From the IMG/VR virus record IMGVR_UViG_3300042870_000288, positions 1-30,602 of that record: a stretch of 30,602 nucleotides of DNA. One strand, 5' to 3'. A program made the translations under genes and the position numbers. Every line of letters starts with the position of its first letter. The first letter of the stretch is position 1. This stretch comes from a virus. The notes beneath the pieces are model-generated. The model was not told the DNA's origin and did no database searches. It saw only the letters and a list, made by a program, of their open reading frames with translations. Shown piece after piece: positions 14,616-28,401 of the stretch.

Positions 14616-14891
14616 ATGGCTAAAAAATTTTATGCCCAAAAAGACTATCTAGGTTTCCCTATTCCAGGTACAATGATGTCTGTTGAAAGTCCACGTAACA
14701 TTCCTGCAGATACTATTAGTATCCCTGCTCAAGATGTTACAGCAGCTGGAGAACAGGTAGTTGTTAATCAACCTTCAGGACTACGTTACTTTGTACGTAG
14801 AGATTCTAAAGGTGAAATTATACCTAACACGTTGACTATCAGTCTAAAGAAACCAGCAGGTTCTGTTTATGAGTTCAAACTTTTAAAATAG
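14616..14891 (+). CDS. Small phage protein, 91 aa, first gene of the rightward block
   Basis: Starts MAKKFYAQKDYLGFPIPGT, then a beta-rich body (TISIPAQDV, EQVVVNQPSGLRYFVRRD) with no membrane segment or signal peptide. The abundant short strands suggest a small virion or decoration-type protein, but no family can be assigned with confidence. It ends at a TAG. If that TAG were read through, four more codons lead to a TGA that overlaps the next gene's ATG. Confidence 0.75.
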   Translation: MAKKFYAQKDYLGFPIPGTMMSVESPRNIPADTISIPAQDVTAAGEQVVVNQPSGLRYFVRRDSKGEIIPNTLTISLKKPAGSVYEFKLLK

Positions 14892-14899
14892 AAACCTAA

Positions 14900-15187
14900 A
14901 TGATCAAAGAGAACCCATCTATAGCAGCATTCAAGGTGTGGGTATTCCCAACCCTTGTATCTCTTGTTAGTTTGCTTATCTGGAATGATGTAAACGAGAT
15001 TAAGTCTGATGTTAAGTTGCTAATGGCCCAGTCTAATATAGACAAAACCAGGATAGATAACTTAGAACGTCAGATGTTTAAATCAGCTGGTTTTCCGGCA
15101 ACTCCTATTAAGCATCTTAATGATTATCAATCAATTGTAGCTATTCTGCCGGATAACAAATATAAAACAATAAAGTATGACTTTTAA
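14900..15187 (+). CDS. Single-pass membrane protein with coiled coil, 95 aa
   Basis: An N-terminal hydrophobic segment (FKVWVFPTLVSLVSLLIW) is followed by a heptad-like region (EIKSDVKLLMAQSNIDKTRIDNLERQM) and a polar tail. The TM-plus-coiled-coil layout resembles small phage lysis-cassette proteins such as XhlA-type holin partners. Its gene overlaps the next holin-like gene by 11 nt and is close to the GH19 lysin, which supports a lysis role but does not prove it. Confidence 0.65.
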   Translation: MIKENPSIAAFKVWVFPTLVSLVSLLIWNDVNEIKSDVKLLMAQSNIDKTRIDNLERQMFKSAGFPATPIKHLNDYQSIVAILPDNKYKTIKYDF

Positions 15188-15419
15188 ACAATGGGCTCTA
15201 GATCTTTTTAAAGATGAACGTGGTTCCACTTCTATTAAACCAGTAGTGGGTTTTATGTGTGCATTGTTTCTATGTGTAACACTAACAGCTAATAGCTTTT
15301 CTCATGGTGATATTAAACCTTCAGATGCTTTAGTTGACGCTGTAATGTATATCTGTATAGCAGCATTAATTGGTGATACAGGTGATAAGTTCTCATTTAA
15401 AAAGAAGTCAGATGAATAA
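15177..15419 (+). CDS. Two-pass membrane protein, holin candidate, 80 aa
   Basis: A short amphipathic start (MTFKQWALDLFKDERGST) is followed by TM1 (PVVGFMCALFLCVTL), a polar turn (SFSHGDIKPSD), TM2 (AVMYICIAALIGDTG) and a charged Lys-rich C-terminus. Size, two membrane spans and basic tail fit a class II holin, located a few hundred bases before the endolysin. It overlaps the next gene by 8 nt. Sequence similarity to a named holin family was not recognised. Confidence 0.6.
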   Translation: MTFKQWALDLFKDERGSTSIKPVVGFMCALFLCVTLTANSFSHGDIKPSDALVDAVMYICIAALIGDTGDKFSFKKKSDE

Positions 15420-16038
15420 GATATATTTTTTCATTATAGGTGTGCTAGTAGTCTTTGTTCTTTTACAGAATAAAGGTTGTGTAGGTGGAGGTGTTCAATC
15501 TGGATCTGATACTCTTGTAGTACATGATACTACTTGGTCAGTTAGAGATAGTTTGATTTTTTCTAAACCTAAGCCGGCTAAGATTATTCATGATAGTTTA
15601 TTCATTGAGGGTAAAACAGAATATCTAGCAGATACTAACTACGCTGCACTAAAAGTACAGTTTGATGATCTTGTTAGAAAATATACAGCATTAGCTATTT
15701 ATGCAGATAGCGTAAAGCTAGATACACTAGGCTATGTTACAGTGACAGATACAATTCAAGAAAACGGTATCAAAGGAAGATCCTGGAAATACAATTATAA
15801 AATACCTTTTGTTACCAAGACGGTAACAATTACTAATCAAGCTCCAGCTAAAACACAATTGTATGTTGGAGGTGGTGTAAGTACTACACAAACATTAGGA
15901 TTACAAGCTGCAGAAGCAGGTGTCATTCTGAAAACTAAATCAGATAAAATATACGGACTAAAAGCCGGATCTGATATAAATGGTAACATATCTTATGGCT
16001 TCCAGACTTACTGGAAGATCGGTAAAAAAAATAAATAA
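15412..16038 (+). CDS. Membrane-anchored periplasmic protein, spanin candidate, 208 aa
   Basis: I use ATG 15412 (MNKIYFFIIGVLVVFVLL), which overlaps the upstream stop and begins with a membrane anchor; an ATG 42 nt earlier would only add a polar stretch in front of it. After the anchor comes a long Asp/Thr-rich periplasmic part (DTLVVHDTTW, SVRDSL) and a C-terminal beta-rich part (LYVGGGVSTT, YGFQTYWKIGKK). The layout suits an inner-membrane spanin or a periplasm-spanning component. The beta-hairpin tail might contact the outer membrane. Function is inferred from position in the lysis region. Confidence 0.6.
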   Translation: MNKIYFFIIGVLVVFVLLQNKGCVGGGVQSGSDTLVVHDTTWSVRDSLIFSKPKPAKIIHDSLFIEGKTEYLADTNYAALKVQFDDLVRKYTALAIYADSVKLDTLGYVTVTDTIQENGIKGRSWKYNYKIPFVTKTVTITNQAPAKTQLYVGGGVSTTQTLGLQAAEAGVILKTKSDKIYGLKAGSDINGNISYGFQTYWKIGKKNK

Positions 16039-16039
16039 T

Positions 16040-16180
16040 ATGAAAAAGATTATTGCATTGATTAAGAAGTTTTTATTTGGTAGCAAGATTGAAAAAGCAG
16101 TAGCTGCTACTCAAGTTGCTAAAGAATTTAAAAAAACATCAGTAAAGATTAAGTCTGGTACTGCTAGTAAGAAGAAGTAA
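16040..16180 (+). CDS. Small basic peptide, 46 aa
   Basis: Starts at ATG 16040, one base after the preceding stop. An amphipathic, hydrophobic N-terminus (MKKIIALIKKFLFGSK) is followed by an Ala-rich and then strongly Lys-rich tail ending TASKKK. It could be a membrane-active or DNA-binding peptide, or a minor virion protein. It lies directly before the endolysin gene, so a lysis accessory role is possible. Confidence 0.55.
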   Translation: MKKIIALIKKFLFGSKIEKAVAATQVAKEFKKTSVKIKSGTASKKK

Positions 16181-16196
16181 TAAACACAAACTATAT

Positions 16197-16796
16197 ATGA
16201 ACTTAGAAAAACTAAAAGGACACATCCCGGATACTGTTATTGCACAGATCCCTGGTGTAATGGAAAATTTTGGTGTTAATACACCATTAAGATTGGCTCA
16301 TTTCTTAGCTCAATGTGGTCATGAATCAGGTGGATTTAGATTAACTCAAGAGAATCTTAACTATTCAGCTAAGGGTCTTATGGGTACATTCAAGAAATAC
16401 TTTCCTACACAAGCATTAGCTGATGCTTATGCTCGTCAACCACAAAAGATTGCTAATAAAGTATACGGTGGTCGTATGGGTAACGGTTTAGAAGCTTCAG
16501 GTGAAGGATTTAAATTCCGTGGAAGAGGTTACATTCAGTTAACTGGTAAACAAAATTATACAGCATTTGATCTAGCTGTAGAAGATGATATTCTTGCTAA
16601 TCCAGACTTAGTTTCTTCTAAGCATGCATTATCTTCTGCTGCTTGGTTCTGGAAAAAGAACGGTTTAAATTTAATTGCTGATACAGGATCTAGTGCAGAA
16701 GTAGTAACTAAAATTACTAAACGTGTTAATGGCGGTACTATTGGATTACCAGATCGTATTAAGCATTTTAAGGAATTCTATGAATTAATAACTTAA
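16197..16796 (+). CDS. Glycoside hydrolase family 19 endolysin
   Basis: A 199-aa single-domain enzyme with GH19 chitinase/lysozyme signatures. AHFLAQCGHESGGF carries the catalytic acid E43, and ENLNYSAKGL with E52 follows. FRGRGYIQLTGKQNY (the GRG-QLT motif) and TKRVNGG near the end complete the set. Phage GH19 enzymes cut the glycan strand of peptidoglycan. There is no signal peptide, so release should depend on a holin, of which there are candidates just upstream (15177) and further downstream (21504). The full-length domain fits a complete, functional lysin. Confidence 0.92.
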   Translation: MNLEKLKGHIPDTVIAQIPGVMENFGVNTPLRLAHFLAQCGHESGGFRLTQENLNYSAKGLMGTFKKYFPTQALADAYARQPQKIANKVYGGRMGNGLEASGEGFKFRGRGYIQLTGKQNYTAFDLAVEDDILANPDLVSSKHALSSAAWFWKKNGLNLIADTGSSAEVVTKITKRVNGGTIGLPDRIKHFKEFYELIT

Positions 16797-16804
16797 AAGC
16801 AAAT

Positions 16805-17845
16805 ATGAAAAATTTAATACAGTATGTAGGACAACCCGTAAAAAAACTTTTTAATTCAACAGAGTTTAGACTTTCAGTAAATACCATTATAGATGGTAAT
16901 GTTGATTTAAATAAGAGTACAAAATCAACTATATATGTTGATGGTACAAGAACAAGTGAAGGATATAACCGAACAGGTAATATTTTAACTCCTTTTAATA
17001 CTATAACAGATGCATATAATGCAGCAGTAGCTTCAGGTTATAATGATAGCAATCCTGCATTTATAGTATTGTTAAGTAACATTACTGAAAATGTAACTTT
17101 TACACAAGGTGGTATTTGGTTAACTAGTATTGGATCAGGAACACATGGTTCTTATAATATTACTGGTACTATTACATTTAATGGTAGTGCTAGTTCTACA
17201 TTTGAAAACCATTTTATGATGGCTAATGTAAGAATCATTGCACCATCTAATGGTAAGGGTATCTATTCTACAGGAACTAATCCTCAGAAAGTATTCTTAA
17301 AAGACATTTGGGTAGATGCATCTGGAACTACAGGTTCTGGTATTTATATAGACAACTCAGGATCAGGAAGCACATTACACTTAAACGATGCTCACTTAAC
17401 TCATAGTGGTACAGGAGATGTATATTGTGTAGATGCTAGAACTGGTGGATGTTACATGACAGATATTGAAACTAGTGGGTCTAACGTACAAGTTGTTAGA
17501 GTGGGGGCAACAGCTGTTGTAACTCTAGATAGCTCTGAAATAGATGCTACTGGAGATGCAGCAATTGAAGTGTATGGAGGAACTATTATTGTTACAAGAT
17601 CTATTATTAGTAATACTAAAGTTAATGGACATGGTATTGCATTAAATGTTTCAGGATCTATAGCTACTGTTGGTAATTGTTTATTTAATATCAATGCTTC
17701 AGGAGTTACAACAGGTAAAGCTGTATATGGTGTAGCAACAACTATTTTATTATACCAATACCTTTCGTTTTACCCAGGATCTAATACTGCTAAAACAGCT
17801 AGTCCAACATTAGTAGCAACAGCTTTATCAACTTCATTTACATAA
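16805..17845 (+). CDS. Parallel beta-helix protein, probable virion/tail fibre component
   Basis: A 346-aa protein with repeating Gly/Ser/Thr/Asn-rich short strands (WLTSIGSGTHGSYNITGT, VYCVDARTGG, IEVYGGTIIVTRS) typical of pectate-lyase-like right-handed beta-helices. The N-terminus (VGQPVKKLFNSTEFRLSV) is distinct and may be an attachment segment. The recurring pattern begins near the phrase IYVDGTRTSEGYN. Such proteins serve as tailspikes or fibres that bind or cut surface glycans. No catalytic residues can be picked out. There is no signal peptide, in contrast to the following genes. Confidence 0.7.
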   Translation: MKNLIQYVGQPVKKLFNSTEFRLSVNTIIDGNVDLNKSTKSTIYVDGTRTSEGYNRTGNILTPFNTITDAYNAAVASGYNDSNPAFIVLLSNITENVTFTQGGIWLTSIGSGTHGSYNITGTITFNGSASSTFENHFMMANVRIIAPSNGKGIYSTGTNPQKVFLKDIWVDASGTTGSGIYIDNSGSGSTLHLNDAHLTHSGTGDVYCVDARTGGCYMTDIETSGSNVQVVRVGATAVVTLDSSEIDATGDAAIEVYGGTIIVTRSIISNTKVNGHGIALNVSGSIATVGNCLFNINASGVTTGKAVYGVATTILLYQYLSFYPGSNTAKTASPTLVATALSTSFT

Positions 17846-17855
17846 AAACTAAGCA

Positions 17856-17981
17856 ATGGCTAAAGTTAAAGCAGGTGACTCAAAAAAAGTCACTTTTGGA
17901 AAAAGAAAAACAGGACGTTTACGTAAAAGTAGTGGTCCTAAAGCTAAAAAAGTTAGTAAATATAGGGGGCAAGGAAGGTAA
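17856..17981 (+). CDS. Small, very basic phage protein, 41 aa
   Basis: ATG 17856 to TAA 17979-17981 encodes a 41-aa protein that begins MAKVKAGDSKKVTFGKRKTG and ends KKVSKYRGQGR. About one third of the residues are Lys or Arg. The FGKRK...KKY/KYRGQGR pattern is one I associate with tiny conserved proteins of Bacteroidota phages, possibly DNA-binding or virion-internal. It lies 10 nt after the beta-helix gene and 32 nt before the next. A short inverted repeat (17875-17880 with 17888-17893) is embedded in the coding region. Confidence 0.7.
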   Translation: MAKVKAGDSKKVTFGKRKTGRLRKSSGPKAKKVSKYRGQGR

Positions 17982-18013
17982 TACTTACTTAGCTCTCTTT
18001 AATATATAAATAT

Positions 18014-18658
18014 ATGAGAGCACTTGTAATTAATTATGGCCAAAAGTTATATGAGATAATTGTAATAATATTATTCAGTTTAGCTTTTATATGGGTGATT
18101 TTTGCACTCATGTTTCAATTATTCTTTGTTTATCTTGAATTTTCTGGTAAAACAGAATTACAGAGAAATGTTATTAACTGGATTGAGTGGAGGATAGATG
18201 GCACCTTTAAAAATAATCCAGAAAATATCTGGTATGAAGAACCTAAGAAGATAACTATATCTTCAGTAAGTAATAAAGTGGTTGTAGGATCTTTAGCTGG
18301 TAATAGAAATTTAGAGTTTGGTTTAAAGAATATTTTAGAAGAAGTAGTTCAAGAAAAGGAATATGAACTAGATACAGCTGCTAGTCTTAAAATTACAGCA
18401 GAGATAATATATCTAGACGTATTAAAAACACAATCTAGTTTTTCAGTATTACATAATAATAAGGAGTCAGTTGTTATTAGACTTAGAGGATACCTATATA
18501 AAGATGGTAAACTTGAGAAAAAAATAACTGTTGAGGAATCTGCTGATGAGGTTAGCATGTCTGCTTTATTAATAGACGAAGGTGGTAAGTTTAACCAACA
18601 AAATTTAAGTTCAGCTCTAAAGAAAGCTTCTGTTTCATTGGTAAATAAACTATTATAA
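18014..18658 (+). CDS. Inner-membrane-anchored protein with CsgG/YajG-like domain
   Basis: A 214-aa protein. Residues about 12-42 form a long hydrophobic anchor (IIVIILFSLAFIWVIFALMF). The soluble part alternates helix and strand: LEFGLKNILEEVV, LKITAEIIYLDVL, VVIRLRGYLYKDGK, and a final helix LSSALKKASVSLVNKLL. This order, with a helix followed by three long strands and a terminal helix, resembles the fold shared by YajG, LpoB and CsgG-type envelope proteins. The match is by pattern, not a proven homology. It opens a run of secreted proteins and its stop overlaps the next start as TAATG. Confidence 0.6.
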   Translation: MRALVINYGQKLYEIIVIILFSLAFIWVIFALMFQLFFVYLEFSGKTELQRNVINWIEWRIDGTFKNNPENIWYEEPKKITISSVSNKVVVGSLAGNRNLEFGLKNILEEVVQEKEYELDTAASLKITAEIIYLDVLKTQSSFSVLHNNKESVVIRLRGYLYKDGKLEKKITVEESADEVSMSALLIDEGGKFNQQNLSSALKKASVSLVNKLL

Positions 18659-20781
18659 TGAGAAAATTTATTACAGTAATACTACTGTTTATTACAACAC
18701 TTTCGTTTAGTCAACAAAAGTTTAAAGCTGGTACATCTATAGGAGGAACTTCTCTTAATAGAGGAGAGACTTTTGACTATATCATTTATGGTAATGGAAT
18801 GAATAACAACACAACACGTCAGTTGTTGTTTGATATTATGTATGATCATGTGAATTTTGAGCTTGTATCTGTAGCTCACACTGGTACTGGAGGCAACGGT
18901 GGTATTCTTCCACAGGGATCTACTATTCAGTTATCATTTAATAACTATCCTAATTACACTTGGAACTCAGTAACATCTGGTTCTGCTGCTAATAACACTG
19001 CAAACGGTACTACTAACTATCAATATGCTAACTACACTTTTAATGGTGCAGGTGGGCTTAACGCTATTTTAAGAACTACTCTTTCATGGGCTACTAATTC
19101 AGCTATGCCTTATAATAGTTACAGTGATTTTATTAAGATTAAGTTTAGACTTAAAGCTGCTTCAACAGCATATACATTTAGTCCTATTAAGTTAAACTTT
19201 GTAGCAGGATGGAAAGCTGATGGCAGCTGGGATGCTACTATAATGGAAGCTCCTTTATCCACTGCAGTTACTATGAACCAAAACTTTGGAAAGTATGTAT
19301 CTGCTAAGGTTGATCTAAACTCTAATTTATTTAATCTATCTAACTTAAGAGTTTCTTTTAGAGATACTCTTACTAATACAGGGGTATTATTTCCCATTAC
19401 TTCTACAGGAGAGGTTGATATTAATCAAGCTTCTTTAGCAGATAATAAAGTGTATGAGGTTACTGTAATGCACGATATGGATAAGTTGTATACTATATAT
19501 GGTAATGCAATCACTATATCTGATTTTACTACAGCTCAGGGTGAATTTACTTCAATGGGACTGGACGGATCTAATGGCCAAAGTATCAAAACTGGACAGT
19601 CATTATATGCCGCAGACATTAATCGTAATAAAACGATAGATGGTGGAGATCTTCCCCAATTGCTTGCACAAGTGGCAGGTATAGATACATTGTTTATGCT
19701 CCCTAGTGGTTATACAGCAGGAACTGGAGGTTATATGTCTCTTCCTACATGGAATGCTTCTGATGCAACTACACTTGCTGGCCAAGTTGAATGGGCTTAT
19801 GTTACTCCAGGCACATCTTCTAGTACTCTTCGTATTGATATGAGAGAGTTTGCTAGTGGTGTAGCACCTAATACTATTAAAAGTGTACAGCTTTTTGATA
19901 TCTATACAGGACCTATTGAATATGTTTCTCAAGATGGAACTTGGGCCCAATACACTGTACCTTCTACACTTGTTAAAGCAAAAGATGGTACGTCTTTATA
20001 TGTATCTTCTATACGTAATGTTAACAATCAGAATGTTGATTATTCTTTAAGAGCTGAGTTTGAGTTTAATAGCTCTGTAAATGCATCTTGGGGAGCCATC
20101 ACTGCAGCTAACTGGAAGAATATTACTGTGCCAAAAACTTTCTTTAAGACTGGAACTCCTGGTACTAATGCTATTTTAGATCTGAAATATCTTTTATGGG
20201 GTGATGTGAATCGTTCACACTCGTCACAAGTTGTGACCAGTTCAAATGGGGTTAGTAGTGTACAAACAAATGCTGTTAATAGTTTAGTTACTAATAGTGC
20301 ATTTAGAACAATGTCTATACAAGCTAATACAACTGGTAACTCTATTTCAGCACCAACTAGTGTAAAAGAAATTGAAGTTAACCTTAATAATCTTACAGTT
20401 ACATCTAATACTATTGAGATTCCAGTAAGTGTAGATACTAGAGGAGCATCTGTTACCGGATTACAGTTTGAATTTACTTATGATCCAACTAAAATTAAGT
20501 TTGAAGAGCTATTAACCAATGTACCTAATACATGGTATGTGTTTGCAAAATCTAAGGACGGCAGAGTTAAGTTTGGTGCCTTAGATAAAAACAATTCTGA
20601 AGCTATATCTGGAGTCAAAGTTCCTTTTAAACTTAAGTTCACTACAATTGGCCAAGGTGTAGATATTGTTACATCTGTAAAAGTTAGTCAACTTATGGAC
20701 GCTGCAGATTCTAAAGGAAATCAGTTAGGAATAAGTCTTAACTCTACACAAATTAAGTTAACCGGTTATAATAACTTTTAA
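18658..20781 (+). CDS. Large secreted protein with cohesin-like and dockerin-like segments
   Basis: A 707-aa protein starting with a clear signal peptide (MRKFITVILLFITTLSFSQ, cut near residue 19). The N-terminal ~200 residues are beta-rich. Around residues 317-332 ADINRNKTIDGGDL matches a dockerin-type Ca-binding loop, and a second, weaker one (GDVNRSHSS) is near residue 515. The C-terminal ~140 residues (NTIEIPVSVDTRG, LQFEFTYDPTKIKFEEL, VPFKLKFTTIG) look like a cohesin domain. Cohesin/dockerin pairs join large extracellular complexes. Presence of both on one phage protein suggests self-assembly or binding to surface partners. No T9SS C-terminal domain is obvious. Confidence 0.75.
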   Translation: MRKFITVILLFITTLSFSQQKFKAGTSIGGTSLNRGETFDYIIYGNGMNNNTTRQLLFDIMYDHVNFELVSVAHTGTGGNGGILPQGSTIQLSFNNYPNYTWNSVTSGSAANNTANGTTNYQYANYTFNGAGGLNAILRTTLSWATNSAMPYNSYSDFIKIKFRLKAASTAYTFSPIKLNFVAGWKADGSWDATIMEAPLSTAVTMNQNFGKYVSAKVDLNSNLFNLSNLRVSFRDTLTNTGVLFPITSTGEVDINQASLADNKVYEVTVMHDMDKLYTIYGNAITISDFTTAQGEFTSMGLDGSNGQSIKTGQSLYAADINRNKTIDGGDLPQLLAQVAGIDTLFMLPSGYTAGTGGYMSLPTWNASDATTLAGQVEWAYVTPGTSSSTLRIDMREFASGVAPNTIKSVQLFDIYTGPIEYVSQDGTWAQYTVPSTLVKAKDGTSLYVSSIRNVNNQNVDYSLRAEFEFNSSVNASWGAITAANWKNITVPKTFFKTGTPGTNAILDLKYLLWGDVNRSHSSQVVTSSNGVSSVQTNAVNSLVTNSAFRTMSIQANTTGNSISAPTSVKEIEVNLNNLTVTSNTIEIPVSVDTRGASVTGLQFEFTYDPTKIKFEELLTNVPNTWYVFAKSKDGRVKFGALDKNNSEAISGVKVPFKLKFTTIGQGVDIVTSVKVSQLMDAADSKGNQLGISLNSTQIKLTGYNNF

Positions 20782-20782
20782 C

Positions 20783-21163
20783 ATGAAAGAAACAAATAAA
20801 CTATTAGCCATCTATTTGATAATCATAGGTATATTCGTAATATATTCTTGTACTAAAATAGAACTACCAGAACCAGCACCGCCTATTAATTTAGGTACTT
20901 TCTCTTTGTCTACAAAGATTAAATCTATTAGTCAAAGTGGTAATATTGTTACTGCTGAGTTTAATACAACTGAAGGAGCTAAATACTCTGTACAGATTGT
21001 ACCATTTGGTAAAGAAGAACCAGTTAAAAAAGAAGGCTTTACAGCTACAGACTCTATAACTAAAAAAGTATATAACTTGACTGGTTTGGCCAAACAAGAT
21101 TATGATCTTATTTTTATGGATGTAAATGGTAAAGAAGTTAAGTATCCAATAATTATAAAATAA
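20783..21163 (+). CDS. Small lipoprotein, 126 aa
   Basis: The N-terminus has a hydrophobic signal and a lipobox-like IYSC with Cys23 (LIIIGIFVIYSC), so the mature protein should be lipidated and held in the inner or outer membrane. A Pro-rich linker (ELPEPAPP) follows, then about 80 residues of beta-rich domain (IVTAEFNTTEG, YSVQIVPFG, VYNLTGL, YDLIFMDVNG) resembling a fibronectin-type III or Ig-like fold. It begins one base after the cohesin-like gene, suggesting a joint function at the cell envelope. Confidence 0.7.
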   Translation: MKETNKLLAIYLIIIGIFVIYSCTKIELPEPAPPINLGTFSLSTKIKSISQSGNIVTAEFNTTEGAKYSVQIVPFGKEEPVKKEGFTATDSITKKVYNLTGLAKQDYDLIFMDVNGKEVKYPIIIK

Positions 21164-21169
21164 CATATT

Positions 21170-21484
21170 ATGTCAGAAGAAGTAGAAAGTGCAAATGACG
21201 GAACATTTTCCGGATTAAAGAAAACCATCATTGGTGTAGTTACTACAGCAGTTATGGGATTAGGAACTTGGGGTGTAACCCAACTTACAGGTGGAGGTGA
21301 TGAACCAGCCCCTGTACAAGCAGCTCCAGTAATTAACATTACTAATTCACAAACTCAGCAACAAGCTGCAGGTGGAGGCGGTAAGACAGTTATTATTAAA
21401 GAAAAAGAAACTGTTAAAGAACCAGCTAAGCCTGTTAAGAAAAAAGAAGGTGATGAGTTTAAAGAAGAAGCTCCAAAGTGGTAA
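21170..21484 (+). CDS. Membrane protein with charged C-terminal tail, 104 aa
   Basis: A polar N-terminus (MSEEVESANDGTFSGLKK) leads to one hydrophobic segment (TIIGVVTTAVMGLGTWGV), then a Gly/Gln/Ala-rich low-complexity stretch and a Lys/Glu-rich tail (KEKETVKEPAKPVKKKEG). This resembles an inner-membrane protein with a flexible extension, TonB-like in style but without recognisable domains. It precedes the holin-like membrane protein by 19 nt. Confidence 0.6.
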   Translation: MSEEVESANDGTFSGLKKTIIGVVTTAVMGLGTWGVTQLTGGGDEPAPVQAAPVINITNSQTQQQAAGGGGKTVIIKEKETVKEPAKPVKKKEGDEFKEEAPKW

Positions 21485-21503
21485 TTATTAAACAAATATA
21501 AAT

Positions 21504-22112
21504 ATGGAAAACAACACACAAGGTAGTGGTTTTAAACAACTATTAGGAGACATGATGCAAAGACGCTGGTTTATTACAGCGTTAGTATTAGGTTCATTCA
21601 TGCTTATCATAGCAGGTATTTTTACAGCTATTACATATGGTACTGCTATTGCAGGAGAATGGAAAGAACTATTATTATTGTTACTAGGAGCTTTTATTGG
21701 CTCTTATGGTAAGATTATTGATTATTGGTTCTCTGATACAGACAAAGATAAAATGCTTGTACAGAAAATGGATGAAGAAGATGGAACTAGTCTTTCCCAT
21801 ACAAATGATATGAAAGACTCTCCTAAAGATCATACACCTTTAGTAGATCCTGCATTCTTAGCTGCTGCTGATAGAGCTAACGCTCAATCACAAGCTTCTA
21901 AAGCTGAAGCACCAGTTGTTTCTGCACCAGTTAAAAAAGGTGTAGAAATTGATGAAGATGGAGACGGTGTTATGGACGGTCTTGATTTTGATGGTGATGG
22001 TAAAATTGATGAGTACTTTGCACACCGTCAGTGTGAGCACGTTTGGGGTGATGCTGATGGGGATGGTATTGAAGAATGTCTTAAGTGTGGCAAGATAAAA
22101 GATATTGTTTAA
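21504..22112 (+). CDS. Two-TM protein with Ca-binding Asp repeats and Cys/His tail
   Basis: A 202-aa protein. Two membrane segments (RWFITALVLGSFMLIIAG and ELLLLLLGAFIGSYGKIID) are followed by a charged, Ala-rich linker. The C-terminal part has repeated DxDxDG loops (EIDEDGDGVMDG, LDFDGDGKID, DADGDGIEE), like EF-hand or thrombospondin type-3 calcium sites. These enclose H and C residues (CEH and CLKCG) that could hold zinc. The TM part resembles holin-like proteins of Bacteroidota phages. A metal-binding tail on such a protein is unusual and may sense or bridge envelope components. Confidence 0.68.
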   Translation: MENNTQGSGFKQLLGDMMQRRWFITALVLGSFMLIIAGIFTAITYGTAIAGEWKELLLLLLGAFIGSYGKIIDYWFSDTDKDKMLVQKMDEEDGTSLSHTNDMKDSPKDHTPLVDPAFLAAADRANAQSQASKAEAPVVSAPVKKGVEIDEDGDGVMDGLDFDGDGKIDEYFAHRQCEHVWGDADGDGIEECLKCGKIKDIV

Positions 22113-22136
22113 CTTAATTAACTAACATGGACCCTG

Positions 22137-22364
22137 ATGAACAGAAGACTAAAACTAAAGAGAGTAAACTCTTTCAAAGACATAAGCTTACTGCTAGCCA
22201 TGTTTTTTCTACCACTGGGATACGATTTGTTATTCAAGACACTCTTAAATGTTACTGGGAGCTTTTGGGTTACAGATATCATATTTTACTGCTTGTCAGG
22301 GGTGTTTTGGCTGCTTTACTGGGTATTATCGAAATACTCTAATAAATTAATAAGATATGAATAA
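22137..22364 (+). CDS. Small membrane protein, 75 aa
   Basis: Basic N-terminus (MNRRLKLKRVNSFKD) with two hydrophobic segments (ISLLLAMFFLPLGYDLLF and DIIFYCLSGVFWLLYWVL) and a basic tail, so probably an inner-membrane hairpin. Its stop overlaps the start of the CsgG-like gene by 8 nt, which favours this frame over the other frame open here from 22127. No family named. Confidence 0.62.
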   Translation: MNRRLKLKRVNSFKDISLLLAMFFLPLGYDLLFKTLLNVTGSFWVTDIIFYCLSGVFWLLYWVLSKYSNKLIRYE

Positions 22365-23088
22365 AAGACATTTTGTTTGGTTTATGTTTTTTTCCGGCAT
22401 GCTCCTAGTGGGGCATGCTGGTTTTTCTCAAGTTGCTAAAACTACTACTGAGAATTATAAAGCAGATTTTGAGAAAGCTATTGACATCAGTCAGTTTATG
22501 GATTATGAAGGTAAGCAAATCCCTATCCAGATTCTTAAAGCAGGTATTTCTGAAGAGATGTATGAACTCTATCCTGAGCTTAAAGAAAAGCGTGTAGGAT
22601 TAGGCGTTGCTAACATTTCTATGGAATACTTAGAGAATCTTAACAGGTTTAAGTTCACTGAAGATAAGACAGAGATTAAGAACAGAATGGTTAAGCAGTT
22701 TCAAGCTTCAGCTGCAGGTATCTCTGAGAATAAACTAGATGGCCGTGGTAAAATTAACTTAGCAGAATACTTTGTTACAATAGAATGCTATGACTATTCT
22801 ATATCAGAAGATGAATCTGTTTATATAAAAGGGGACACTAAACAACTATTAGTTACACGTATTGGTCTTCAAGTTAGATTTACTAATGCAGAAACTGGTA
22901 CAGTTATATCTGGATCTGGATTAGGTGAAGCTAAAAGTACTAAAGAAACTTCAGGATTATCTGACGCTAGTCTAGACCCTGTAAAGTTTAATCAATCTAC
23001 TATTTCAATAGCTACTAAAAAAGCTCTAGATATTGCTTGTGCAAGAATCCTTGACCGTATGGTTAAAAAAGGAATCTTTGAAAAGTAA
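22357..23088 (+). CDS. CsgG-like secreted envelope protein
   Basis: A 243-aa protein with a signal peptide (MNKRHFVWFMFFSGMLL, cut around residue 25 after GFS). No Cys follows, so unlike E. coli CsgG it is not a lipoprotein. The body follows the CsgG order: an early AxA..ENKLDGRGKINLAEYFV region resembling the GAxYLVxGSVTE strand, LLVTRIGLQVRFTNAETG (RLVDxxTGEV-like), VISGSGLGEA (SxxGxGE-like) and a C-terminal helix (ATKKALDIACARILDRMV). CsgG forms the outer-membrane pore that exports curli. Membrane-inserting hairpins cannot be seen with certainty. Its start and stop overlap both neighbours, so it is part of a tightly coupled set. Confidence 0.68.
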   Translation: MNKRHFVWFMFFSGMLLVGHAGFSQVAKTTTENYKADFEKAIDISQFMDYEGKQIPIQILKAGISEEMYELYPELKEKRVGLGVANISMEYLENLNRFKFTEDKTEIKNRMVKQFQASAAGISENKLDGRGKINLAEYFVTIECYDYSISEDESVYIKGDTKQLLVTRIGLQVRFTNAETGTVISGSGLGEAKSTKETSGLSDASLDPVKFNQSTISIATKKALDIACARILDRMVKKGIFEK

Positions 23089-24419
23089 TGAAAAAGTTTA
23101 TATTCAGCTTATTAATAGTAGTATTACTACCTATCTATGGGTATTCTCAAACTTTGGTACAAACATTTGTGGACCCTTGTACTAAGGTTGTTTCTACGTT
23201 TGTTATACCTATTACTGGTAGCACTGTTATTGTTTTTTATAACAAGTCTCGTATTTTTAGTAGAGCTGATGTTACAAGTGGCGTATTTAACAGTTGGCTT
23301 AATCAAGTTTATGAAGAATATAGAAAGTTATCTCCCTGTTCTGTGGCTCAGGCTACAGCAACTAGCACTCAGATTACAGCCAGTGCTGTTTCTGCTGCAG
23401 TAAGTGCTGCGGCCTCTGCGGCTGCTTCTACGGCAGCATCTTCAGCTGCGGCTAGTGCAGCTTCATCAGCAGCAAGTTCAGCCTCTAGTAGTGCTGCTTC
23501 ATCTGCAAGTTCATCTGCGTCTTCCTCAGCTAGTAGCTCTGCCTCTAGTTCAAGCAATTCTCAAGGATCGAGCTCAGAGTCTAGTAGCAGTAGCTCTAGT
23601 GGGGAAAGTTCTTCAAGTTCTGAATCATCTAGTTCAGAGTCTTCATCAAGTAGCTCAGAATCTAAGTCTGAGTCTAAATCTGAATCAAAAAGTTCATCAT
23701 CTAAGTCTGGGGGATCTAAATCTAAAGCTGCCGCTAAGGGTCCTGCTAAGATAAATCCTATATTATTTAACTCTGACTTTACTGGTGGGCAAAGTCTAGA
23801 TAATAGTTTCAGTATTATTATGACCGGTGGGATATCACAGTCTTCTATGACTGGGCAATCTTCCTGGGGAGTAACCGGCATGGTGTGGAGCAATCTTCAA
23901 CAGTTTGCTATTAGTAGTAGATATACATTGATGCATTTTGATGCAGGTAAACTTCAGGGTATATCTAACTTTGGTTTTACAGCAGCTTACGCTTTTGGTA
24001 CAAAGTTTGGTTTTGGTACATATGCGTACATAAAACCATTAGGAAAATGGGGCGTAACTGGTGTCAATTACACTTTGAGTTTTGCTGAAGCAGCGTACCA
24101 GCCGGACCCAATGATAGATGCATCTAGTCAAATTAGTTTAACTAGTTCTATTTTATTATTTTACACTAAACCATTTACAATAAGTAAAAGGTTATCTATA
24201 TCTCCTGATATATACTTATCAGGTAGTCCTTTAGTATACCTTAGTAAAGAAGGTAGTTTTACAGAGTCTTCTGATATGGGTATACTTACAGGTTTTGGTT
24301 TTGATTACTCTTTTACTAAAAGATTTAAGCTCAACATAGGACTCAAGACTAGTATTTCTACTAATCCTGAGATTCCAATGTTGCTCTTTGGGGTAGTTGG
24401 TTCAAAAATTAACTTATAA
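23088..24419 (+). CDS. Probable outer-membrane beta-barrel protein with Ser/Ala-rich linker
   Basis: A 443-aa protein. Residues 1-20 are a signal peptide (MKKFIFSLLIVVLLPIYGYS). Residues 21-90 form a small domain with Cys31 and Cys84 (VDPCTKVVSTFVIPI, KLSPCSVAQ) that may form a disulfide. Residues ~95-215 are a low-complexity linker. The last ~220 residues alternate aromatic/Gly strands (FAISSRYTLMHFDAG, FGFTAAYAFGTKFGFGTY, WGVTGVNYTLSFAEAAY) ending at a hydrophobic strand, like an outer-membrane barrel. It ends 11 nt inside the convergent VWA gene. Together with the CsgG-like neighbour this looks like an envelope complex. Confidence 0.68.
   Translation: MKKFIFSLLIVVLLPIYGYSQTLVQTFVDPCTKVVSTFVIPITGSTVIVFYNKSRIFSRADVTSGVFNSWLNQVYEEYRKLSPCSVAQATATSTQITASAVSAAVSAAASAAASTAASSAAASAASSAASSASSSAASSASSSASSSASSSASSSSNSQGSSSESSSSSSSGESSSSSESSSSESSSSSSESKSESKSESKSSSSKSGGSKSKAAAKGPAKINPILFNSDFTGGQSLDNSFSIIMTGGISQSSMTGQSSWGVTGMVWSNLQQFAISSRYTLMHFDAGKLQGISNFGFTAAYAFGTKFGFGTYAYIKPLGKWGVTGVNYTLSFAEAAYQPDPMIDASSQISLTSSILLFYTKPFTISKRLSISPDIYLSGSPLVYLSKEGSFTESSDMGILTGFGFDYSFTKRFKLNIGLKTSISTNPEIPMLLFGVVGSKINL
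23370..23735 (+). repeat. Low-complexity Ser/Ala, Ser/Glu, Ser/Lys-coding tract
   Basis: About 360 nt coding for a three-zone linker: Ala/Ser (residues ~100-157), Ser/Glu (~160-191) and Ser/Lys/Glu (~191-215). Serine codons are mixed (TCT, TCA, AGT, AGC), so the repeat is stronger in protein than in DNA, which suggests selection for the amino-acid pattern. Confidence 0.85.
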
Positions 24420-25935
24420 TATATCCATCTGTATTCACTTTATCAATTCTAGTACCGTTAAATACTACAACCTGATTTCGATTAGAATATTTCTCTATAA
24501 CATCAGAATCAAAGTAGTTAAAGCTTGATCCTTCTACTCCTATAAAGAAAGCCTTCTCAGAATAGATGTGACATCTGTCCTCTGCATCGGTAATAACTAA
24601 TGCATTCATATCATTCTTTACTATAGAATTAACTGCTACATCAATATTAGTACCGCCACAAGTATCAATCATAGATATACTTACTAAGTCATTCTTTGAT
24701 TTTACCAAGCGGGTATCAAATAAATAGATGTCATTAAGCATATTCATTTCTTTTAGCTTAGCTAATAGAGACTTAGAGAAGTCTATCTTGCTGATATTAT
24801 TACCATCTACATCTTGTACACCGCAGGTTGAGCTCATTGATCCTGATATATCTACATACACATCTATTTTACCTACTGATTTTGTTTCTTTGACCATTAG
24901 GTCTTCAGCAAATACTTTACGTAATTTAGGATGTAAAAATATGTAGTCTTCAAGTCCTGATATGTTATCAGCATTGAATAAGTCATCATACTTCACAATC
25001 TGTCTAGATGAAAAATACGATGCAGACTTATCAAGAAGTTTTTTAATCTTCTCTTTTAGTGAGCCTGTAGATAGTTTAATCTTAGCTAGACGTGCTTCAA
25101 TTTTTCTCATATAGTCAGGGCTAATTTTCCCCACTTCATCACTACCTTGTGTAGTGTTTGCATTTTGGAATAGTTTTTCTTGAACATCTTGTTCTAGATT
25201 ATCATCCATCATTTTACATGTTTCTTGAGCATCTTTCATCATTCTCTCTAACATGTTCTTAGATGTTTGACCATTGAACAGTTTATCTAAGGCTTTATCT
25301 ACGCCATCATTATCAAAGTCAGAGTTACCATTTAATCCTTTCTCTATATCATTTTTACTATCTGGGTCTACATACTCCATTTGAGTAAGTTGTAAAAGAT
25401 AGTACATCATCATGTTACGAGTGAATATACTAGACTTAAAGTTAGCATTCTCGGTCATGATTTTACCTACAGGGTTACTAGCTTTTTCTAAAAACTTATA
25501 CTTTGTATAGTTTTTATCATCTCTTTCTTCAAACTCCAACTTCTCCATCTTGTTGTAATACATCTTAAATACATCATACTTAAGATGTGATGGAAACTTG
25601 CTATAGTTTTCAGCAAGCTTAGCAGCAAATGCAGGAAAGTCAGGTTTTTTATCATCATCTATTTTAGCAAAAGCAGCAGTCTTAGAAAAGTTAGTATACT
25701 CTTCTTGTATCTTCTTTTGGTTATTTGAATATGCTTTTACTTGAGAGCCTACAATATTATCTATCTTACGTTCATCAATATAATGCACATAAGGTTTGAT
25801 TAAATCTGCTTTCTTATAGAAGTTTAGCTTGCTAAATAGACCTCCGTCTTCATTGTTGTAGTGAGACTGTATCTCACCTTTCTTTACTTTTTCAAGAATA
25901 GTATATACATTCTTGTATTGTTTTCCGTTAGCCAT
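24409..25935 (-). CDS. VWA-domain protein with MIDAS motif
   Basis: A 508-aa protein. The first ~350 residues are helical and charged (KKADLIKPYVHYIDERKID, NMLERMMKDAQETCKMM), with one Asp-rich stretch near residue 206. Residues ~355-500 are a von Willebrand A domain with a full MIDAS: DISGS (D362, S364, S366), CGGTNID (T429) and ITDAED (D450). It is paired with the MoxR-type ATPase directly upstream, the usual arrangement in which the ATPase remodels a metal-binding VWA partner or its target. It ends 11 nt inside the convergent barrel gene; no terminator is seen between the two opposing genes. Confidence 0.85.
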   Translation of the reverse strand: MANGKQYKNVYTILEKVKKGEIQSHYNNEDGGLFSKLNFYKKADLIKPYVHYIDERKIDNIVGSQVKAYSNNQKKIQEEYTNFSKTAAFAKIDDDKKPDFPAFAAKLAENYSKFPSHLKYDVFKMYYNKMEKLEFEERDDKNYTKYKFLEKASNPVGKIMTENANFKSSIFTRNMMMYYLLQLTQMEYVDPDSKNDIEKGLNGNSDFDNDGVDKALDKLFNGQTSKNMLERMMKDAQETCKMMDDNLEQDVQEKLFQNANTTQGSDEVGKISPDYMRKIEARLAKIKLSTGSLKEKIKKLLDKSASYFSSRQIVKYDDLFNADNISGLEDYIFLHPKLRKVFAEDLMVKETKSVGKIDVYVDISGSMSSTCGVQDVDGNNISKIDFSKSLLAKLKEMNMLNDIYLFDTRLVKSKNDLVSISMIDTCGGTNIDVAVNSIVKNDMNALVITDAEDRCHIYSEKAFFIGVEGSSFNYFDSDVIEKYSNRNQVVVFNGTRIDKVNTDGYIIS

Positions 25936-26022
25936 TGTTACCTTCTTTAAATTGTTTAAGGAGATCCTGAAGAGAAATTACAGATGACCCAAAGGCCGCC
26001 TGTAATTCTCCAAAGGTTACAT
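25928..26022 (-). pseudogene. Small ORF lacking an in-frame start codon
   Basis: Between the MoxR and VWA genes the minus strand encodes, from 26020 on, a protein-like frame VTFGELQAAFGSSVISLQ continuing DLLKQFKEGNNG to TAA 25928-25930. The stop overlaps the VWA start by 8 nt, as real coupled cistrons do elsewhere in the window. The nearest ATG (26020-26022) is one base out of frame and runs into TAA at once. One extra G after it would give MVTFGELQ... of 31 aa. It may be an indel error, a decayed gene, or use of a non-standard start. Confidence 0.4.
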
Positions 26023-26040
26023 TATTGTGAGGATCTCTGC

Positions 26041-27192
26041 TTAGAAAGGATTAGCAGCTTGTTGTAAAGTTGCATCAGCAAAGGTTTCAGCTTCTGATAC
26101 TAGTGTATCAAATTCTTCTGAAGTTTGGTAATCTTTACGAGCAGGATGATTCTGAATAATATACTGCATAGAAATCTCAATCTCTTCCACTTGGGTTTGA
26201 TCCATGATTCCTCTAGTTGTATATGTATTTACTAAACTTTCAATCTCTCCTACAGCTAGTTCAAGTTGTTCATTCGTGTTATAGCTGTGAAGCATTTCCA
26301 CTTTAGACATCACTGCTTTTACTTCTGGACTCATAAGTTTGTTCTGTAATTCAGAACCTGCTGATTGTCCAATCATAATTTGTGCAGTTTTTACAAGAGA
26401 TTTATCCAAGCTAATATCCCAAATATAGCTTACCGCTTTAGTTAGTTTAGGTACGAAAGTTAACGTACGATCTGAACTATGCTGGTAACCCACCTCAAGA
26501 TATTTCTCTAGTTTGTTAACTGGTACTTCTAAAGAGTCAATTTCTTGACTAGTAGGAATACCAATAGTAAACTTCTCACGATAGTCTCTTGCACCTTTAG
26601 TATAATACTTAACAAGCTCACCCGCAGATACACGGTTTACCGTCATCTTCAACATGAAACGATCCCAGAATGGAGAGTTTGCCTCTTCTTTAGGAATTTC
26701 ATTACATGTTGCAATGAATAGCTTCCACTTACATGGAATCTTTTGCTTACCGTTGAATAAGAACTTCTCATTCATTACACCTAACATAGCGTTACGTATA
26801 GCTGAACTAGCTTTATCCACCTCATTGATAATTACAATCTCTGCATCAGCAATTGGTGTGTTAAGATCATAAACATTATCGGTAAATAACTTACCTAGGT
26901 CAGGCATACCCTTGATCTCTGATGCTTTAGTACCTTCATCTGTTTCTAAGATGTAAATCTTATTAGCAAAATCTTGAGCTGTCATCTTGCCATCTTTATT
27001 AAGCCACGCTTTAGCATAGTCTAATACAGTTTTTGTTTTAGCAACACCTGGTTCACCTACTAGTAGACATGGTAGTCCAGTAGATTCTGCTAATGCTAGC
27101 ATTTTAAATACCTCTTCTTTATTAATTAGTGAGGTTTCAATAGTACGATTTTCCTGGGTTGTTCTTTTTGTAATTGATTTTACTTTTGACAT
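26041..27192 (-). CDS. MoxR-family AAA+ ATPase
   Basis: I use ATG 27192 (MSKVKSITKRTTQENR), which follows the upstream stop; an ATG 210 nt earlier would overlap that gene with no known domain. The 383-aa protein has Walker A GEPGVAKT (46-53), a Walker B-like VIINEVDKA (N123, E124, D126) in which the usual Asp before the Glu is Asn, sensor 1 ATCNE (161-165) and a DRF arginine finger (177-179). MoxR ATPases remodel or load metal into protein complexes with a VWA partner, which is encoded next. It is not the replicative helicase. Confidence 0.88.
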   Translation of the reverse strand: MSKVKSITKRTTQENRTIETSLINKEEVFKMLALAESTGLPCLLVGEPGVAKTKTVLDYAKAWLNKDGKMTAQDFANKIYILETDEGTKASEIKGMPDLGKLFTDNVYDLNTPIADAEIVIINEVDKASSAIRNAMLGVMNEKFLFNGKQKIPCKWKLFIATCNEIPKEEANSPFWDRFMLKMTVNRVSAGELVKYYTKGARDYREKFTIGIPTSQEIDSLEVPVNKLEKYLEVGYQHSSDRTLTFVPKLTKAVSYIWDISLDKSLVKTAQIMIGQSAGSELQNKLMSPEVKAVMSKVEMLHSYNTNEQLELAVGEIESLVNTYTTRGIMDQTQVEEIEISMQYIIQNHPARKDYQTSEEFDTLVSEAETFADATLQQAANPF

Positions 27193-27217
27193 ATTGTGTT
27201 TTTTTGTGGGTTGATTA

Positions 27218-27628
27218 CTAGAGGTTTGCAAAGGCTGTGAGTTCATCTGATTTTTCAGATAGGTTTGAGACACTACTCTCATCATTTGTATGTACTGACT
27301 TGCTGAGGTTAAATCTGTCTTCGCTTCTTGTTGGTACTTCTCCCAAAGTCTCACTAATAGGGGTTGTGTCAGCGGTACTGGTGGTTTGTCTAGTATTGGC
27401 ATTTGATGGTTTACTATTATTTGTTATCACGAAAACTCTTGCAATTGTATCTACATTTTGTAACTCAGGATGTTTCTGAATAACTTTAATATGCATATCT
27501 AATGCATTATACTTATCTTGGATGGAGCCGTAGCCTAAATCATCCTTTTTATACCAAGTGTAACCACTGTGTAATAATTCTACAATGTCTTGAACATCAA
27601 TAGATACTTCTTCTTTTTGAATAGCCAT
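27218..27628 (-). CDS. Hypothetical protein, 136 aa, Ser/Thr-rich C-terminus
   Basis: The N-terminal 70 residues (EEVSIDVQDIVELLHSGYTW, KYNALDMHIKVIQKHPEL) look like a compact helical domain. The last 60 are polar and low complexity, rich in Ser, Thr, Asn and Glu. It lies between UDG and the MoxR ATPase and ends in TAG followed at once by TAA. It could be an adaptor for the ATPase/VWA pair, judging only by position. Confidence 0.65.
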   Translation of the reverse strand: MAIQKEEVSIDVQDIVELLHSGYTWYKKDDLGYGSIQDKYNALDMHIKVIQKHPELQNVDTIARVFVITNNSKPSNANTRQTTSTADTTPISETLGEVPTRSEDRFNLSKSVHTNDESSVSNLSEKSDELTAFANL

Positions 27629-27649: not shown

Positions 27650-28366
27650 TTACCAGTTAATTGTATGAGTTTTACCATTGTTAGCTTCTATAATCTCATT
27701 AGCTCTTAAGAATATATTCTTACAATCCCATGTTGTTTTTGTATAGGCTGCAGATGCAGGATGGGATGCTTTAAGAATATAATGATTAGGACCAATTATA
27801 GATTCTAGTTCTTGAGCCTTAGCTCCTAGTAGTACAAATATGAGACCTGAGTTAGTAAAGTTTAGCATGTCAAAGACATACATCACAAACTCATTCCATA
27901 TATTATAATGACTACCAATCTTGTCCACTTGACAAGTTAAAGCGGTGTTAAGTAGTAACACTCCTTGATTAGCCCATCTTGTTAGATTGGGATCTTGATA
28001 AGTTGGAAAGCCTTGATAGACAGTTTCTTCTATAGCCTCAAACATGTTACGAAGACTTGGTTGAGGTTTCATTGTGACTCCACAAGAAAATGCCATACCA
28101 TCTGCTACGCCAAGTTGTGGATATGGATCTTGTCCAATAAATACTATCTTAAGATCCTTTTCTGGACACTCTTCAAAAGCTTTAAATACATCTTTTAAAG
28201 GAGGTGTGAATCTTTTACCATCTTCTCTTTCATTATAAAGAGTTTGTAAGATTTTATCAAAGTCTGAACTCTGTATAAAACCTTTAAGTTTATTAGCCCA
28301 GCCTGATGGCTTAAGCTTTTCTATAAGTTTTTCTTTAATTTCTACCAGATTTATAGTTTGTTCCAT
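27650..28366 (-). CDS. ung: Uracil-DNA glycosylase, family 1
   Basis: I take ATG 28366 over the TTG at 28390. The 238-aa protein has the catalytic water-activating motif GQDPYP (78-83, D80) in place of the usual GQDPYH, the AFSCGV uracil-binding strand (F93), LLLNTALT (N140) and the SHPASAAY minor-groove loop with H202. Family 1 UDGs remove uracil from DNA. For the phage it may protect its own genome from deaminated C or from host dUMP incorporation. Its presence argues against uracil-substituted phage DNA. It is divergent from the plus gene at 28402 with only 35 nt between starts. Confidence 0.92.
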   Translation of the reverse strand: MEQTINLVEIKEKLIEKLKPSGWANKLKGFIQSSDFDKILQTLYNEREDGKRFTPPLKDVFKAFEECPEKDLKIVFIGQDPYPQLGVADGMAFSCGVTMKPQPSLRNMFEAIEETVYQGFPTYQDPNLTRWANQGVLLLNTALTCQVDKIGSHYNIWNEFVMYVFDMLNFTNSGLIFVLLGAKAQELESIIGPNHYILKASHPASAAYTKTTWDCKNIFLRANEIIEANNGKTHTINW

Positions 28367-28374
28367 ATTTTTTG

Positions 28375-28382
28375 TATATTTG
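28375..28382 (+). promoter_or_regulatory. -7-type promoter box for the plus-strand gene at 28402
   Basis: TATATTTG on the plus strand is an exact TAnnTTTG and ends 19 nt before ATG 28402. A TTTG at 28357-28360 lies 14 nt upstream, shorter than the usual 19-21 nt. Confidence 0.55.
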
Positions 28383-28401
28383 ATACTCAAAAACCCAAGT
28401 T

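Follow-up and report, generated by a model that had tools for sequence, protein, structure and literature searches.

The window analysed here, a 30.6-kb linear virus fragment from IMG/VR, contains a plus-strand block (14616-24419) flanked by two mostly minus-strand regions, the left of which carries replication genes. Within this block we found all eight plus-strand ORFs that the initial annotation had described, designated A to H (Table 1), and confirmed that they are consecutive and tightly packed, with successive intergenic gaps from A to H of -1, +1, +6, +19, +24, -8 and -1 nt. Each of the eight is under purifying selection relative to three relatives (dN/dS 0.05-0.35, lowest for G at 0.05), and all are real genes, beyond what chance would produce. 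PHROGs returned no functional match for any module protein, and no window protein scored above a curated NCBIfam cut-off. Given that the operon extends upstream through a lysis cassette, the envelope genes do not form an isolated block in this phage.

A repeat-rich, possibly beta-helical protein of 346 aa lies between the lysin and gene A; it has no match in Pfam or PHROG, was found in 3 of 83 loci and is probably an accessory insertion. Immediately 3' of the module, two genes labelled by inspection lie side by side, one for a protein of 508 aa in which a stretch, DVYVDISGSMSS, is VWA-like, the other for a MoxR-like AAA+ ATPase (453 aa); both are kept in about 22-27 related loci. An ORF that by inspection resembles uracil-DNA glycosylase is also kept next to the module in the window's clade.

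Table 1. Genes of the module and its neighbours in the 30.6-kb window.
Feature	Position	Strand	Basis
Lysis cassette: small membrane proteins, holin-like, spanin-like, GH19-like endolysin	14616-16796	+	ORFs, spacing
Holin-like protein	15177-15419	+	label by inspection
Spanin-like protein	15415-16038	+	label by inspection
GH19-like endolysin	16197-16796	+	label by inspection
Repeat-rich protein, 346 aa	16805-17845	+
A: membrane-anchored CsgG/YajG-like protein, 214 aa	18014-18658	+	N-terminal hydrophobic helix; profile-profile match to G family
B: secreted cohesin protein, 707 aa	18658-20781	+	Pfam Cohesin; signal peptide ending SFSQ
C: lipoprotein with Ig-like domain similar to T9SS C-terminal sorting domains, 126 aa	20783-21163	+	lipobox YSC
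D: single-pass membrane protein, Gly/Pro/Lys-rich tail ending EEAPKW, 104 aa	21170-21484	+	topology by inspection
E: membrane protein (about 2 TM), 202 aa	21504-22112	+	prediction; family in loci
F: small membrane protein, 75 aa	22137-22364	+	predicted
G: secreted CsgG-fold protein, 243 aa	22357-23088	+	AF2, Foldseek, signal peptide ending HAGFSQ
H: outer-membrane protein with signal peptide, 443 aa	23088-24419	+	AF2, Foldseek, strand amphipathicity
VWA-like protein and MoxR-like AAA+ ATPase	24409-27402	-	labels by inspection
Uracil-DNA glycosylase-like ORF	27650-28390	-	label by inspection

A protein search of IMG/VR with the window's G recovered 476 relatives, and a search with its homologue from Flavobacterium phage Immuto recovered 113, which may overlap the 476. 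We evaluated 160 viral loci, a figure that counts sequences and not independent events, and observed a core consisting of the CsgG-like pair A and G, the cohesin protein B, D and the barrel H that recurs in 141-160 of them. G was accompanied by a cohesin-family protein in 147 loci, by H in 146 and by D, near B and G, in 141, and a second CsgG-like protein is usual alongside it; gene order is conserved in related phages, which the initial annotation had proposed as a check. Sec-type signals were common (G, 155/160; B, 234/248; H, 146/148). In a relative of 132 kb, 8 of the 10 module genes begin with a signal-peptide-like N-terminus, as opposed to 4 of 146 genes elsewhere (p=3e-9), an enrichment beyond chance. 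The claim of an envelope-directed module is supported. The accompanying argument that ordinary lysis genes need no Sec signals was too strong, as spanins and SAR endolysins use Sec.

The cohesin domain claimed for B was borne out by a Pfam match above the cut-off (PF00963, residues 584-690, E 4.3e-7, 30.7 bits against 24.1). B also contains a dockerin-like calcium loop at about residues 319-332, ADINRNKTIDGGDL, a pattern present in 115 of 245 B-family members and in none of 245 shuffled sequences. Pfam Dockerin_1 (PF00404) has no match in the window at E<=0.01; it reaches this threshold in 27 of 42 related contigs and exceeds the cut-off in 4, and the dockerin region of one relative weakly matches the scaffoldin dockerin 4uyp_B (E 0.0099). 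Relatives of B are large and modular, and among 48 diverse members we detected Cohesin in 25, a T9SS sorting domain in 14 and a C-type lectin domain in 12. The presence of cohesin domains and a dockerin-like loop on one exported protein, along with the 4uyp_B similarity of a relative, recalls cellulosome scaffoldins; unlike with scaffoldins, no carbohydrate-degrading enzymes were recognised in the module, and cohesin-dockerin contacts here are putative.

A T9SS sorting domain scored over the cut-off in 24 of 42 related contigs, nearly always exactly one in each; in the loci, between one and four genes separate its position from G, on the upstream side. These phage domains possess the canonical YPNP motif and match solved sorting domains, and Immuto gp015 combines a cohesin with a T9SS type A sorting domain (TIGR04183, E 9e-12). 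Occurring in related phages and thus out of sight of the initial annotation, they give the strongest indication of a role at the surface. T9SS cargo was reported for Cryophage as three variable genes, encoding an endoglucanase, a GH39 protein and a PA14-domain protein, and was called a unique occurrence by its authors (PMC7468147). Like Cryophage, the phages studied here encode proteins that carry a T9SS type A sorting domain and presumably rely on the host secretion system, but here the domain belongs to the conserved cohesin gene of one module in many phages, with a split lipoprotein version elsewhere.

That split version is the arrangement of the window, as a T9SS C-terminal sorting domain is absent from the window's B and, among the 42 contigs, from all those of the window's clade. 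Most loci without a fused sorting domain have C directly 3' of B, and C immediately follows B in 61 loci, mostly 1 nt apart. Profile-profile comparison related the C family to the phage T9SS sorting domains (prob 94%, E 1.9e-7), with a weak match to Pfam Por_Secre_tail (8 of 29 members at E<=0.05); DUF3244 also matches C, and the similarity to T9SS domains could be a generic resemblance among Ig-like folds. By our count, 75 loci have the fused domain, 68 have C, none has both and 17 have neither, with 12 of these 17 having fewer than six genes upstream of G. On these sequence patterns, a single function seems to be provided in two ways, by a domain fused to B or by a protein of its own. Because the split largely follows two big clades, the pattern may reflect a single event.

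Closer inspection of G supported the CsgG-type fold that had been claimed for it. In a Foldseek search of the PDB with the AF2 model (pLDDT 75.7, 47 sequences), the best 23 matches were all CsgG (E from 2e-7), with TM-scores of only about 0.3-0.5, followed by GNA1162, PelC and LptE, which belong to the same fold class. Searching BFVD yielded one phage 'CsgG' match (E 1e-7), the remaining matches being weak. Pfam CsgG does not match the window's G and profile-profile comparison with CsgG was not significant (prob 4%, E 0.009), so it is the fold search that underlies the CsgG assignment. No significant sequence match in the PDB was obtained with the G profile, the A profile or B. A reached only E=0.023 against Pfam Lipoprotein_16; it matched the G family in profile-profile comparison with a probability of 88% (E 3e-6; unrelated controls, 0.1-0.5%), which identifies A and G as homologous, paralogous proteins by sequence comparison. 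In Immuto-type phages, the counterpart of A has a signal peptide and sits after H.

The initial annotation had associated G with the curli export pore, and a curli-type (T8SS) exporter in which G is a CsgG pore secreting a fibre subunit has precedent in the csgG/csgF modules of pelagiphages and of an OM43 phage (PMC7029224, PMC9599517, PMC9004378). The module resembles these in being phage-borne, multi-gene and envelope-directed, in its CsgG-fold protein and in being common to unrelated phages. The AF2 model of G, however, shows a single long hairpin (138-177), one further strand (183-197) and a low-confidence loop (198-212), with no counterpart of the second transmembrane beta-hairpin of CsgG; the first strand of the hairpin is not amphipathic and bears a charged, nearly invariant EDE stretch. 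G also has no lipobox, its first Cys being residue 144. As G lacks both the second membrane hairpin and the lipid anchor of CsgG, and as no CsgE, CsgF, CsgA or CsgB gene was recognised in the module, the pore assignment is unsupported, and on this evidence G has a CsgG-like fold without being a CsgG-type pore. The module further departs from curli and pelagiphage systems in its added 12-stranded barrel, cohesin proteins and T9SS cargo, and its G family is confined to viruses, whereas pelagiphage CsgG was traced to Alphaproteobacteria (PMC7029224, PMC9599517, PMC9004378). With the fold and the phage precedents in its favor, and these differences and the non-significant Pfam and profile results against it, we regard a curli-type exporter as quite improbable. 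A count of 41 G relatives as lipoproteins by lipobox was dropped, the pattern being loose and the window's G having no early Cys.

The outer-membrane barrel with a Ser-rich linker claimed for H likewise held up. Its AF2 model comprises a small N-terminal domain, a helix (83-129), a disordered Ser/Ala linker and a 12-stranded barrel (225-442), whose strands are more amphipathic than those of shuffled sequences (p=0.0005), and the two Cys of the N-terminal domain are invariant in 145 of 145 relatives. Foldseek identified FapF as the best solved match (E 1.4e-7), with NanC, OmpG and KdgM close behind. FapF, the export channel for Pseudomonas functional amyloid, combines a 12-stranded barrel with a disordered linker and a coiled coil (PMC5557850), and H is similar in its signal peptide, N-terminal helical region, disordered linker and 12-stranded barrel. 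It differs from FapF in showing no detectable sequence relation, in its extra N-terminal domain with two conserved Cys and in the lack of FapA-E partners, and other 12-stranded barrels fit H almost equally. The resemblance between H and FapF lies in architecture and fold, with membership at most putative, and may be generic to 12-stranded barrels. The resemblance to the porins NanC, OmpG and KdgM would also suit a role of H as a channel for uptake or permeability, supplying the infected cell with the aid of periplasmic helpers; this we consider very improbable, as it leaves the cohesin, dockerin-like, lectin and T9SS features and the inner-membrane parts unexplained.

The small membrane proteins are less uniform. 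The E family occurs in 86 of 160 loci and is absent from Immuto, and in some relatives a holin-like protein occupies the position of F. The C-terminus of E carries DxDGDG calcium-loop repeats followed by a CxxC motif, which is unusual for a phage membrane protein.

The module is virus-specific and essentially absent from bacteria. Matches were found in 2 of 84,980 bacterial and archaeal species genomes, one of which also accounts for the single match among 395 Bacteroidia genomes. Both matching contigs look viral by inspection, with a GH19-like lysin and, in one case, tail-collar-like genes as well. The phage-like contigs L166 and L167, the latter of 254 kb, were assigned to Bacteroidota MAGs used as species representatives. 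Among cultured phages, one matching group was recovered from 50,697 phage records, namely Immuto, with 52% identity in G. A study of Baltic Sea Flavobacterium phages (PMC7077304) does not mention Immuto.

The phages that carry the module are diverse. The major head protein encoded by the window-like contig G456 is of the Cellulophaga phi17:2 / gut crAss-like type. A tail sheath is present in both Immuto and contig G460, and the head proteins of Immuto are T4-like; those of G456 and Immuto share no similarity, so the module crosses phage lineages with unrelated capsid proteins. The Immuto module occupies 10.5-16.4 kb of the genome; the annotated genes for tail and head are found at about 82-159 kb, and those for lysis at 22 and 44-45 kb. 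Immuto also has a cluster of glycosyltransferase and sugar-modifying genes at 49.2-60.0 kb (L163 16173-26989), which could alter host surface glycans too.

These arrangements bear on whether the products are virion components that merely pass through the envelope, an option left by the initial annotation. The lectin- and carbohydrate-binding-type domains do recall tail fibres, as do the large, modular relatives of B, but Sec signals and T9SS sorting domains occur on the products, the head and tail genes recognised in Immuto, G460 and G456 are located elsewhere, and the module spans phages with unrelated capsids. As the products are exported and, in other phages, the module is separate from the genes for head and tail, a virion role is unlikely, and we give it only a slight chance. 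Envelope remodelling is favored over it because the products are exported, inner- and outer-membrane parts occur together, T9SS sorting is found in half of the cases and the domains are of adhesive type.

The main rival is an outer-membrane stage of lysis, because in the window's clade the module and the lysis cassette are neighbours. On this view, G, H and the inner-membrane proteins would work as an elaborate spanin system, opening the outer membrane once holin and endolysin have acted. The module continues the lysis cassette in the window and near relatives, 95 of 160 loci have a lysin family no more than 10 genes away, and F and a holin-like protein swap at one position. The cassette beside the module is, however, kept in the window's clade and not in Immuto or G460: the Immuto lysins and holin are about 6-30 kb off and the GH19-like lysin of G460 about 30 kb from the module. 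A lysis function would have no need for T9SS-exported cohesin or lectin proteins, and the window already has a separate spanin-like gene. We therefore judge this explanation unlikely.

The reading that we prefer, at slightly less than even confidence, is infection-time, virus-specific remodelling of the envelope of a Bacteroidota host, with a cohesin/dockerin scaffold exported to the surface. The module would be expressed within the infected Bacteroidota cell, with G as the periplasmic part, H in the outer membrane and A, D, E and F as inner-membrane components; these six proteins probably form one trans-envelope complex, a guess made from gene order. B would be the business end, Sec-exported and displayed on the host surface with its cohesin and dockerin-like loop. 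In one large phage group B would leave via the host T9SS through its fused sorting domain; in the window's group, where that domain is gone, anchoring or docking of B probably falls to C, the product of the next gene, and we infer that export may run through H as a FapF-like channel. An adhesive coat on the infected cell could arise by polymerisation, with copies of B binding one another, and lectin-bearing partners in other phages, through cohesin-dockerin contacts; its likeliest benefit would be exclusion of competing phages or holding cells together. Superinfection exclusion and aggregation, both proposed for pelagiphage curli (PMC9599517, PMC7029224), would fit by analogy. A more specific version, in which A and G, the small membrane proteins and a FapF-like barrel make up a virus-only, trans-envelope secretion and display machine that exports or docks a self-assembling scaffold whose T9SS-fused and lipid-anchored modes of fixing are interchangeable, is possible though doubtful.

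We found no description of the module in the literature on Bacteroidota phages, and its combination of genes, its restriction to viruses and the fused or split sorting domain are absent from the literature searched. Hundreds of environmental phages of Bacteroidota retain the module, including some whose capsids are unrelated, and it almost never occurs in bacteria, which suggests that rebuilding the surface of the infected cell is a common phage strategy in Bacteroidota hosts and that phage use of the host T9SS is routine rather than exceptional. Because Immuto is a cultured Flavobacterium phage, the module is open to direct testing. Collectively, these data point to a multi-gene kit in many Bacteroidota viruses that probably supplies a trans-envelope complex and surface adhesins, a remodelling of the dying host that has hardly been described.
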